Of a DNA stretch of 21,678 nucleotides, positions 4,583-19,152 are shown in pieces. The stretch lies in IMG/VR virus record IMGVR_UViG_3300020442_001527, positions 1-21,678 of that record. One strand, 5' to 3'. The notes below the pieces were generated by a model, which made no database searches, was not told the DNA's origin, and was given only the letters and a program-made list of their open reading frames with translations. The position numbers and the translations under genes are program-made. Numbering within the stretch: the first letter of the stretch is position 1; each line of letters begins with the position of its first letter. This stretch comes from a virus.

Positions 4583-4787
4583 AGTATATAAAGTAGATCC
4601 AAGACAAATACATATTGATCAGCGTAAACAAGATACAAGAAGAGACGCTTGGGATAGAGATTATATGGGCTTTTATTATTTGAAGGAGGAGCCAAAAAGT
4701 AAAAAGCGAATATCTAATGCAACTCCTGTTTTTATATTTGCTTTTTTTTATATTTGTATTTTAGTAATGATAGATTCGATGGGGTAA
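4569..4787 (+). CDS. Small protein with C-terminal membrane anchor
   Basis: A 72-residue protein. The first 48 residues are strongly charged (many K, R, D), and the last 23 form one hydrophobic membrane segment (TPVFIFAFFYICILVMI). It looks like a tail-anchored peptide facing the cytoplasm. It ends just before the thyX start. Function is unknown. Confidence 0.6.
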   Translation: MAKPEVYKVDPRQIHIDQRKQDTRRDAWDRDYMGFYYLKEEPKSKKRISNATPVFIFAFFYICILVMIDSMG

Positions 4788-4789
4788 AA

Positions 4790-5449
4790 ATGATAGCAAG
4801 ATTAGTTAGTTATTCTCAACCAACCAGCATTATAGGAATTGAAGATGTACAAGAGTTAATTGCATTTTCTGCAAGAGTTAGTAATCCTTCAAACCAAATG
4901 AATAAAGATACAAATCAAAAGTTACTTAATTATCTTATTAAACATAAACACTGGTCGCCATTTGAAATGGTAAGTGCTTGTATTGAAATCAATACTACAC
5001 GTGATATTGCCAGACAAATTTTAAGGCATCGTAGTTTTAGTTTTCAAGAGTTTAGTCAAAGGTATGCAAATCCAGTAGAGGAGTTAGAGTTTGTTACACG
5101 AGAAGCGAGAATGCAAGATACAAAGAATAGACAAAATAGTGTTGAAGTTGATGATAAAACTATCCAAGATGAGTGGCAGCAAGAACAAAGAAAAGTTATC
5201 GAAGTCTGCAAACAAGCTTATAAAAATGCAATTGAAAAAGGAATAGCTAAAGAAGTTGCAAGAGCGGTCTTACCGGAAGGATTGACGGAATCAAGATTAT
5301 ATATGAATGGTACTATTCGAAGTTGGATTCATTTCATAGAATTACGTTCAGCTAATGGTACACAAAAAGAATGTATTGAAGTTGCAAAAGCTTGTGCAAA
5401 AGCAATAACAAATATATTCCCTATGGTAAAGGAGTTTGTGAATGAATAA
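4790..5449 (+). CDS. thyX: Flavin-dependent thymidylate synthase ThyX
   Basis: ThyX makes dTMP from dUMP using FAD, NADPH and methylene-tetrahydrofolate, feeding phage DNA synthesis. From the chosen start the protein is 219 residues, normal for the family. The diagnostic RHRX7S signature is complete: RHRSFSFQEFSQR at residues 79-91. The downstream segment LPEGLTESRLYMNGTIRSWIHFIELR is the usual substrate-binding end of ThyX. I chose ATG at 4790 with GGGG five bases upstream, over an in-frame TTG at 4754 that would lie inside the previous gene. It overlaps the next gene by eight bases. Confidence 0.95.
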   Translation: MIARLVSYSQPTSIIGIEDVQELIAFSARVSNPSNQMNKDTNQKLLNYLIKHKHWSPFEMVSACIEINTTRDIARQILRHRSFSFQEFSQRYANPVEELEFVTREARMQDTKNRQNSVEVDDKTIQDEWQQEQRKVIEVCKQAYKNAIEKGIAKEVARAVLPEGLTESRLYMNGTIRSWIHFIELRSANGTQKECIEVAKACAKAITNIFPMVKEFVNE

Positions 5450-5850: not shown

Positions 5851-5906
5851 CATTTAAATGCATTTTCTCCTTTACATTTCCATAAAACTGTGGTAGAATA
5901 TATCTA
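5851..5906 (+). promoter_or_regulatory. Sigma70-like phage promoter P1 with palindromic box
   Basis: The -35 element TTTACA is at 5871-5876, followed by a 17-base spacer ending in TGTGG and the -10 element TAGAAT at 5894-5899. Start of transcription is expected near 5906. A perfect palindrome, AAATGCATTT (5856-5865), sits five bases upstream of the -35. The same layout recurs at 18766 and 19110. It drives the gene at 5932 and probably the operon through RNase H. Confidence 0.8.
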
Positions 5907-10542: not shown

Positions 10543-10778
10543 TGAAATTAACAGAAGCAATACAATTAAGATCTGAGTTTGAATTTATTACTAAAGGGTT
10601 CAATATGCCCGAAGGTTCTAGTATAGATACTATAGAATGGTTTATAGATAATGGCCATAGGTCAAATTCTTTGAGAAAAGGATTTGATGATGCACTAACG
10701 TTAGCGAAGGAAATAAAGGAGTTTAGCGATGGCTGCACAAAAAAGACTAGAAGCCGGAAGCAAGTACGCGTCTTTTGA
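10542..10778 (+). CDS. Small hypothetical protein
   Basis: The product has 78 residues and starts in the nuclease stop codon (TAATG). The body is acidic and helical with TIEWFIDNGHRSNSLRKGF in the middle and a basic tail (CTKKTRSRKQVRVF). The first gene of the EF-hand frame overlaps its last 50 bases. No family is recognised. Confidence 0.6.
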   Translation: MKLTEAIQLRSEFEFITKGFNMPEGSSIDTIEWFIDNGHRSNSLRKGFDDALTLAKEIKEFSDGCTKKTRSRKQVRVF

Positions 10779-11061
10779 TAAAGACGGCGACGGAATTGTT
10801 ACCGATGAAGAATTTGAAATGGAACAAAAATTGATACAATTAGAAAATGAAGATAAAAAACAAGATGCACAAAGAAACATGGCTTGGTTTGCTTTGTTTG
10901 GTATGTTACTTTACCCTGCTATTGTTGTTGCTGCAACGTTATTTGGACTTGATAATGCTGCAAAAATACTAGGCGATATGGCTGCAGTGTATTTTGTATC
11001 TGTTGCTGCTATTGTAGCTGCATTTTACGGCAAAGAGGCTTTGGCACAAAAGAAAAAATAA
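10729..11061 (+). CDS. EF-hand membrane protein
   Basis: A 110-residue protein. Residues 17-28 are a canonical 12-residue EF-hand calcium loop, DKDGDGIVTDEE, with acidic residues at positions 1, 3, 5 and 12 and glycine at 6. An amphipathic charged helix follows, then two membrane helices (about 51-74 and 81-101) and a basic tail (KEALAQKKK). The hairpin membrane layout with a calcium loop is seen in proteins of several marine phages. Size and topology would also fit a holin-like protein. Start is ATG with AAAGGAG upstream. It sits directly before the glycan cassette. Calcium binding is inferred from the loop alone. Confidence 0.85.
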   Translation: MAAQKRLEAGSKYASFDKDGDGIVTDEEFEMEQKLIQLENEDKKQDAQRNMAWFALFGMLLYPAIVVAATLFGLDNAAKILGDMAAVYFVSVAAIVAAFYGKEALAQKKK

Positions 11062-17833: not shown

Positions 17834-18649
17834 ATGACACAACTTATATCACCCCAAAAATTTACTGACACTGTTGGCCTACTAAGGTCATTTTTTTTGG
17901 AAAAAGGATTTTTGGAAGTACACACTCAAAACAGATTATCGATACTGGCGGCATGTGAAGATCCCTTTAATGTTGCCACTTACAATTATGCAGGTCAGGT
18001 TTGGCCGCTGCCGCAGACAGGTCAAATGTGGTTAGAACACGAATTATTATCCAGCCCCTCAAGTAAGGGGTTTTTTTGTGTCTCCACTTCGTATAGGCAA
18101 GAACCAAATGCAATACCGGGTAGACACGACATCATCTTTCCAATGTTTGAATTTGAAATGCCGGGTAACATACATGATCTTGCAAGAATGGAGTATGAAC
18201 TCGTTGAATACTTAGGATTTAAAAAGCCTACAGAAAAGAAATATTCTGATTGGCAGAAAGAATACGGTGTTGATGGAGAACTTACTGCAGAGCATGAAGG
18301 TAAGATGTTTGATGATTACACTACAACAATGATTACAGACTTTCCAGAATTTACGAGTCCATTTTGGAATATGAGTCGATATGAAGATGGAATACATTCA
18401 AAGAAGATTGATGTTATTCTTGGAGGTATGGAAACAATAGGATCAGCGGAAAGATCTACAGATGTAGATCAAATGCGTGATACATTTCATACAATTACTG
18501 ACGGTGCATACTCTAAATTGTTATTTGATTTATTCGGTAAAGAAAGAGTAGAAGCCGAGTTAGAAGAGTTCTTGAAGTTTGATTTCTTTCCACGAGTTGG
18601 CGGTGGTATTGGAATGACAAGAATGATTGCGGCTTTAGATACTATCTAA
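17834..18649 (+). CDS. Minimal class II aminoacyl-tRNA synthetase-like protein (Asp/Asn type)
   Basis: The product has 271 residues and consists only of a catalytic core. No N-terminal OB-fold anticodon-binding domain precedes it: sequence starts directly at LLRSFFLEKGFLEV, the motif 1 region, whose usual proline is missing. Motif 2 is complete (TSYRQEPNAIPGRH then FPMFEFE, residues 85-108, with R88 and E90). VILGGMETIGSAERSTD (194-210) and motif 3 GGGIGMTRMIAAL (256-268, R263) match class IIb enzymes of the Asp/Asn/Lys group. AsnRS-related archaeal asparagine synthetases and EpmA-type ligases also consist of such a core, so the product may be charged tRNA, free asparagine or a modified molecule. 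It ends seven bases before a tRNA gene. Bases 17950-18120 are less AT-rich than their surroundings. Confidence 0.85.
   Translation: MTQLISPQKFTDTVGLLRSFFLEKGFLEVHTQNRLSILAACEDPFNVATYNYAGQVWPLPQTGQMWLEHELLSSPSSKGFFCVSTSYRQEPNAIPGRHDIIFPMFEFEMPGNIHDLARMEYELVEYLGFKKPTEKKYSDWQKEYGVDGELTAEHEGKMFDDYTTTMITDFPEFTSPFWNMSRYEDGIHSKKIDVILGGMETIGSAERSTDVDQMRDTFHTITDGAYSKLLFDLFGKERVEAELEEFLKFDFFPRVGGGIGMTRMIAALDTI
18053..18077 (+). terminator. Intrinsic-terminator-like hairpin inside the synthetase gene
   Basis: CCCCT (18055-18059) can pair with AGGGG (18066-18070) across a six-base loop, and seven T residues follow (18071-18077). Two weak pairs extend the stem. The site lies in codons 74-82 of the gene at 17834. 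Such a hairpin could end part of the transcripts, or be a coding coincidence in SSPSSKGFF. Confidence 0.4.
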
Positions 18650-18656
18650 TAGTTAT

Positions 18657-18741
18657 TGCTGGGTGGCGGAACGGTAGACGCGGTAGGTTGTTTCCCTATT
18701 GTCAGGCAGGCGTGGTGGTTCGAATCCACCCCCAGCAGCCA
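18657..18741 (+). tRNA. tRNA with anticodon GUU and class II (Leu-like) body
   Basis: The acceptor stem TGCTGGG pairs perfectly with CCCAGCA (18731-18737). Next come discriminator G73 and an encoded CCA. The D-stem is GCG/CGC with loop GAACGGTAGA. The anticodon stem GTAGG/CCTAT (one G-U pair) encloses loop TTGTTTC, giving anticodon GUU (18690-18692, Asn) with U at position 37 where a purine is usual. The variable region is 14 bases (18700-18713) with a possible three-pair stem, so this is a class II tRNA. The T-stem is GGTGG/CCACC with loop TTCGAAT. The D-arm context GGTGGCGGAA...GGTAGACGCG is that of bacterial tRNA-Leu. Anticodon and G73 are those of tRNA-Asn. Isotype is therefore conflicted. 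It is probably co-transcribed with the synthetase-like gene. Confidence 0.88.
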
Positions 18742-18765: not shown

Positions 18766-18809
18766 AAATGCATTTTTTCCTTTACAAACGGTTTTTTTTG
18801 TGGTACAAT
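18766..18809 (+). promoter_or_regulatory. Sigma70-like phage promoter P2 with palindromic box
   Basis: The palindrome AAATGCATTT is at 18766-18775, the -35 TTTACA at 18781-18786, then a 17-base spacer ending TGTGG, and the -10 TACAAT at 18804-18809. Sequence upstream (18744-18758) holds two T-tracts that may act as a UP element or help terminate the tRNA transcript. It drives the gene at 18845. Confidence 0.8.
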
Positions 18810-19111: not shown

Positions 19112-19152
19112 TGCATTTTTTCCTTTACATTTGCGGAAAACTGTGGTAGAAT
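19110..19152 (+). promoter_or_regulatory. Sigma70-like phage promoter P3 with palindromic box
   Basis: AATGCATT (19110-19117) overlaps the end of the preceding gene. The -35 TTTACA is at 19124-19129, with a 17-base spacer ending TGTGG and the -10 TAGAAT at 19147-19152. It matches P1 closely, including the bases after the -10. It drives the genes from 19184 onward. Confidence 0.8.

Follow-up and report, generated by a model that had tools for sequence, protein, structure and literature searches.

Asparaginyl-tRNA synthetase (AsnRS) is a class IIb enzyme whose kind of catalytic core also occurs outside translation, in archaeal AS-AR and in AS-A, as a free-standing AsnRS-like unit of ~270-340 aa; to our knowledge, neither a tRNA partner nor a link to pyrimidines is known for AS-AR or AS-A. 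Non-proteinogenic tRNAs are represented by the staphylococcal tRNA-Gly that serves for cell-wall bridges, and the adenylation of an amino-acid carbamate formed from bicarbonate is carried out by TsaC/Sua5, the threonylcarbamoyl-AMP synthase. For the cyanophages P-SSM2 and P-SSM7, a table entry of Sullivan and colleagues (PMC3037559) lists T4-GC 194 as 'tRNA ligase'. The passages found in that paper contain no discussion of the synthetase-tRNA pair, the odd tRNA or the pyrimidine context described below, and our literature search, with subscription journals mostly outside its coverage, returned no paper that deals with the pair or with a pyrimidine enzyme resembling AsnRS. T4-GC 194 and PHROG 29758 are the same protein family, for which the function label in PHROGs is 'unknown'; the tRNA lies directly behind the gene in P-SSM2 and P-SSM7, and P-SSM5 possesses the tRNA as well.

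The window, that is, the whole stretch of viral DNA analysed here (21,678 nt, IMG/VR record IMGVR_UViG_3300020442_001527), carries a member of this family (E 1e-131 to PHROG 29758) directly followed by a tRNA gene (Table 1).

Table 1. Positions of the synthetase-tRNA pair and of other features of the window.
Feature	Positions	Strand	Basis or remark
AsnRS-like class II synthetase core (T4-GC 194 / PHROG 29758 family)	17834..18649	+	271 aa
Spacer, stop codon to tRNA	18650..18656	+	7 nt
Type II tRNA, anticodon GUU, U1-A72, G73, encoded CCA	18657..18741	+	ARAGORN
ThyX-like thymidylate synthase ORF	4754..5449		by eye
Promoter-like module	5860..5899		
Promoter-like module	18770..18809		
Promoter-like module	19113..19152		
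Small phage ORF, EF-hand-like motif	10729..11061		translation

The window enzyme matches Pfam tRNA-synt_2 (D, K and N; PF00152) with an E value of 1.2e-15 over profile positions 29-292 of 308. This was its sole Pfam match, no anticodon-binding domain was found in the 271 residues, and the AlphaFold model (pLDDT 92.6) consists of the core only; together with motifs 2 and 3, the Pfam match bears out a reading made earlier from the sequence alone (hereafter the sequence-only reading), which had described a minimal class II core of the AsnRS/AspRS class without an anticodon-binding domain. When the model was used in a fold search, the best PDB match was 1x54, a structure of AsnRS with asparaginyl-adenylate (E 1.1e-17, TM 0.79 by query), and a profile built from 42 relatives had AsnRS 2xgt as its top match (E 6e-13). 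Residues R88, E90 and H98 of motif 2 and R263 of motif 3 are invariant among 40 aligned members and, as read from the alignment, the ATP-site motifs of this AsnRS-derived core are intact. The enzyme shares with AsnRS the catalytic fold, motifs 2 and 3 and Asn-type residues in the region of the substrate pocket, where the segment QTGQMWLE resembles QSSQLYLE of AsnRS, unlike QSPQLYKQ of AspRS. In contrast to AsnRS, it lacks the N-terminal OB-fold anticodon domain, is ~17-21% identical in sequence, has CEDP in place of the EGG loop and an invariant Arg (R254) in place of the His before motif 3, and belongs to a family that sits in a pyrimidine gene context. None of the named equivalog models scored the window enzyme above its curated cut-off, the AsnRS model TIGR00457 (asnS) giving 30.2 bits against a cut-off of 342.6. 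Membership in LysRS was rejected on a score far under the curated cut-off, and so was identity with EpmA, which acts in EF-P lysylation (genX model, 14.5 bits against 286.9). The fold search also returned a protein of Pithovirus LCPAC304 (BFVD A0A481Z9R2) with 46% identity and a TM of 0.93 to the phage model, and the family may be present in a eukaryotic giant virus too.

Of 157 viral loci that were retrieved through the protein and extend 200 nt or further downstream, 153 have the tRNA behind the enzyme gene, and the gap between the two in relatives is mostly 7-15 nt. With this frequency the linkage is not due to chance, and the synthetase-tRNA pair is almost certainly real and conserved; the same survey of adjacency upholds the coupling of enzyme and tRNA that had been proposed from the window. 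The pair is common in the sea, since scans of viral sequences gave at least 599 pattern matches in IMG/VR. In the two megaphages LR756501 and LR756508, no such tRNA was found beside the enzyme gene, and a search for the GUU type II pattern elsewhere in the two found none. The database record of P-SSM2 (AY939844.2) puts a tRNA-Asn ~2 kb off, within a CDS; in the DNA of this phage it immediately follows the 'tRNA ligase' gene, at record position 164094-164179. The window also contains three near-identical promoter-like modules of the form GCATTTTTTCCTTTACA-N13-GTGGTANAAT, of which none is expected by chance and one starts ~29 nt past the tRNA, and a small phage ORF whose translation contains the EF-hand-like motif DKDGDGIVTDEEFE.

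Rfam RF00005 also calls the window tRNA (47.7 bits, gathering 29, positions 18657-18738), a family-specific tRNA model scores it at 80.7 bits, and the end elements and anticodon given in Table 1 were taken directly from the sequence; single-sequence RNA folding gave a z of 0.10. ARAGORN, Rfam and the sequence thus agree with the sequence-only reading on an odd tRNA shortly after the stop codon that carries GUU and G73. That reading missed the type II body of the tRNA, its U37, the pyrimidine-biosynthesis context and the limitation of the tRNA to one phage lineage. The D arm of the window tRNA is Leu-like and its variable arm is paired; across the family the variable arm measures 11-38 nt and forms a stem, unlike the short loop of a type I tRNA-Asn. 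Its anticodon loop, UUGUUUC, keeps U33 and has a U at position 37. We collected 147 distinct family tRNAs by a search that required the stems and the T loop only; the counts omit two loci, L062, where the finder chose a neighbouring tRNA-Cys, and L351, which fitted poorly. U1-A72, G73 and the anticodon GUU are invariant in all 147, G18G19 and the T loop are retained, and CCA is encoded in 99. A pyrimidine (U or C) occupies position 37 in 128 of the 147 (87%), and in 14 the U at position 33 is replaced by C or G, whereas each of 128 other tRNAs from the same loci has U33 and a purine at 37 (Fisher, 3e-58 for pyrimidine-37 and 1e-4 for non-U33). When the changes were mapped on the enzyme tree, position 33 had changed 12 times and position 37 17 times, with no change at positions 34-36. 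Because some loci had been fetched by the long-arm motif GCAA(n)TATTTA, the loop statistics were rerun on protein-retrieved loci alone, with the same outcome. This variable-loop motif is shared by long-arm tRNAs (loci L006-L085 and L199-L278; 28 of the 35 long arms in protein-retrieved loci) and may be a protein contact. Many relatives with longer arms receive the wrong identity from ARAGORN, which calls them Glu, Asp or Ile.

The family therefore has the GUU and G73 of an elongator tRNA-Asn and departs from it at U33 and purine 37. Since pyrimidine-37 and loss of U33 occur in the family and neither occurs in the 128 control tRNAs, the phage tRNA is, judging by its sequence, probably not an ordinary elongator. 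The loop pattern is that of a tRNA whose identity elements, and not its decoding, are the reason for its retention, a last step that draws on established tRNA biology. Like the staphylococcal tRNA-Gly, the phage tRNA would be specialised away from the ribosome; unlike in that case, the alterations lie in the anticodon loop and leave G18G19 and the T loop intact, and only here is there a dedicated neighbouring synthetase. The lost U33 and purine-37 favour the earlier proposal that the aminoacyl-tRNA is used beyond translation, a use that we infer. The same changes weigh against an orthogonal translation pair, in which the enzyme would charge the tRNA with Asn and the tRNA would decode phage AAC and AAU codons even if host tRNA-Asn runs short or a defence nuclease destroys it, the altered loop possibly resisting cleavage. 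Such a pair would fit the intact class II motifs, the Asn identity elements in every tRNA copy, the frequently encoded CCA and the frequency of tRNAs in phages, but we consider it unlikely, given the replacement of U33 in several lineages, the prevalence of pyrimidine-37 and bacterial homologues that lie beside pyr genes and have no such tRNA. A simple bypass of the host amidation route for translation, also raised by the sequence-only reading, found no support.

A scan of 84,980 genomes gave 129 homologues of the enzyme. Bacterial loci that were retained come from Bacteroidota, CPR, Midichloriaceae, Pasteurella atlantica, Dependentiae, Myxococcota and others (52-63% identity), and a few homologues lie in DPANN-type archaeal MAGs. 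The special tRNA was absent from the bacterial loci checked. In 30 records, the GUU type II tRNA pattern occurred only with the phage-type enzyme or on phage-like contigs, and of four such matches one (in G027) is not tRNA-like. A hidden tRNA partner in bacterial hosts was rejected; the tRNA model matches checked in bacteria and megaphages are ordinary tRNAs, mostly tRNA-Leu. In the enzyme tree, a quick tree of modest support, the main phage clade falls within the bacterial sequences, close to those of Pasteurella and Midichloriaceae. The tRNA partner is confined to one phage lineage, and it is not essential to the chemistry of the family, because bacterial homologues and megaphages do without it. 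Relatives without the tRNA, which had been named beforehand as a sign against a joint function, thus exist outside the phage clade, where bacteria and megaphages have the enzyme alone, and not within it.

When the genes up to 4 kb away from 72 bacterial homologues were clustered, PyrE/PyrF-type proteins lay near 22 and PyrD near 19, with the PyrD, PyrE and PyrF identities of neighbours confirmed for examples; these clusters outranked all others, the next being a CPR synteny block in 10 loci. For example, the genes for the enzyme, PyrF, a phosphoribosyltransferase (PRTase) and a PyrD-like protein are consecutive in Candidatus Bandiella. Different neighbours, such as argH or pckA, occur in some carriers (CPR, Weeksellaceae); an argH-like gene adjoins four homologues from CPR and Cytophagaceae (L303, L311, L357 and L358), of which three also have an amidohydrolase beside them. 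The early pathway genes are mostly missing from carriers: above the curated cut-offs, pyrB was found in 1 and carB in 4 of 27 carrier genomes, as compared with both genes in 14 of 14 control genomes, although pathway gaps are frequent in MAGs and in reduced genomes, which make up many of the carriers. The ATCase/OTCase domain PF02729 occurs in 4 of the 27, and the three checked are ornithine carbamoyltransferases. For dihydroorotase, pyrC_dimer was above its cut-off in none of the carriers and pyrC_multi in one, and 12 of the 27 match the multifunctional dihydroorotase model, most of them under the curated cut-off. Neither dihydroorotase model matches in Pasteurella atlantica (G001), Bandiella (G003) or a Midichloriaceae genome (G017), all of which have pyr clusters. 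In a single bacterial family, represented by 150 genomes, pyrB is missing in 4 of 4 carriers and present in 134 of 146 non-carriers (p 9e-5), two of the four carriers sharing an identical protein, which leaves ~3 independent cases. PyrD, PyrE and PyrF neighbours combined with absence of the steps that would be replaced were thus found for the bacterial homologues, and in part for the phage loci, and the enzyme family is probably tied to pyrimidine synthesis.

Among the phages, three loci (L046, L174 and, on the other strand, L113) have the order dihydroorotate dehydrogenase-like gene, enzyme, tRNA and PRTase, and a fourth (L040) has the same order with the PyrD-like gene more distant. The phage PyrD-like genes match DHO_dh with E values of 1.6e-16 and 1.4e-17. 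The PRTase, which is orotate-phosphoribosyltransferase-like, is present in 21 viral loci; its own Pfam match is weak (E 0.066), and it was assigned via its bacterial homologue, the PRTase located after PyrF in Pasteurella and Midichloriaceae, to which it is ~33-48% identical. A search for it in named phage records gave no match. In a cyanophage-type locus (L251), a PyrE-like gene lies immediately upstream. DHO_dh was found in just 6 of 42 viral records carrying the enzyme, most of the long ones being without a recognisable PyrD, and in the reciprocal search the phage PyrD-like and PRTase genes were located partly beside the enzyme and also on contigs where the enzyme was not found. No pyrD or pyrE was found near the pair in the window, where pyrimidine metabolism is represented elsewhere by a ThyX-like ORF. 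Three other enzyme-bearing loci (L096, L115 and L119) contain, by eye, a 2OG-Fe(II) dioxygenase (backed by a Pfam match for L096), ABC-type binding proteins and an Apt-like phosphoribosyltransferase, which suggests a wider nucleobase gene set.

The best explanation of these observations, to which we give an even chance of being correct, is that the pair is a phage nucleotide-metabolism module and not an aid to translation, the enzyme making a pyrimidine precursor. This precursor would enter upstream of PyrD and would most simply be dihydroorotate, which equals L-asparagine plus CO2 minus H2O, so that an asparagine-binding, ATP-using AsnRS core could make it. The alpha-N of asparagine would become N1, CO2 would supply C2 and the side-chain amide N would become N3; the carbamate of asparagine would be adenylated, as TsaC/Sua5 does with threonine, and the ring would close on the amide. 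The chemistry proposed here is like that of TsaC/Sua5, whose fold is unrelated and whose product is a precursor of a tRNA modification; we know of no precedent for the reaction as proposed for asparagine. Such a step would replace CarAB, PyrB and PyrC at once and would explain carriers that have PyrD, PyrE and PyrF and are without CarAB, PyrB and often PyrC. In the phage version, asparagine would, on the simplest view, be presented as Asn-tRNA on the dedicated, non-decoding tRNA, and bacteria would use an ordinary tRNA or none. Charging could be by the phage enzyme, by host AsnRS or by host AspRS plus GatCAB, the invariant GUU being read by host AsnRS or a non-discriminating AspRS and U1-A72 by GatCAB; charging by host enzymes would account for the fixation of GUU, G73 and U1-A72 in the partner of a phage enzyme that lacks an anticodon domain. 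Having lost U33 and purine-37, the tRNA would stay off ribosomes. We put forward this tRNA-coupled route from asparagine and bicarbonate to dihydroorotate tentatively, as possible rather than probable: genomic context suggests the pyrimidine role, and from it we infer the reaction and the part played by the tRNA.

A related possibility is that the enzyme makes N-carbamoyl-aspartate from N-carboxy-aspartate and ammonia with ATP, PyrC still being required and the tRNA acting as a carrier or regulator. Most carriers have lost pyrB and carB and 12 of 27 retain a dihydroorotase-like protein, as this reaction would have it; it is nonetheless distinctly improbable, in view of the pyr clusters without a dihydroorotase-model match in G001, G003 and G017 and of pocket residues that resemble AsnRS and not AspRS. 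We are more doubtful still that the aminoacyl-tRNA is a donor for modification of a peptide, lipid, cell wall or protein tag in the infected cell, with the phage pyr neighbours incidental: the clustered neighbours show no conserved transferase partner and the bacterial homologues indicate pyrimidines, even if a dedicated, apparently non-decoding tRNA and a polysaccharide-type gene cluster upstream in the window would suit a donor. Finally, an ammonia-dependent asparagine synthetase like AS-A or AS-AR, to which the tRNA would be linked simply as cargo, the free-asparagine option of the sequence-only reading, is most improbable despite its comparable size and fold and a weak match of the 42-relative profile to 3p8t (E 6e-4), because the asparagine synthetase A models give 15-22 bits against cut-offs of ~300-390 (389 for NF005055) and because it leaves the pyr context and the fixed tRNA unexplained.

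De novo pyrimidine synthesis is taught as a single universal route via carbamoyl phosphate and aspartate carbamoyltransferase, and the genes around relatives of the phage enzyme suggest that the pair takes part in making pyrimidines for the virus along an undescribed route. If dihydroorotate synthesis is correct, one AsnRS-like enzyme in place of the first steps would explain the absence of PyrB and CarB from bacteria that have PyrD, PyrE and PyrF, and the phage form, with its ribosome-avoiding tRNA, would be, as far as we know, the first dedicated tRNA to serve nucleotide synthesis. Whatever the chemistry, a phage synthetase-tRNA pair that is widespread and includes a tRNA stripped of decoding features is unusual and directly testable.
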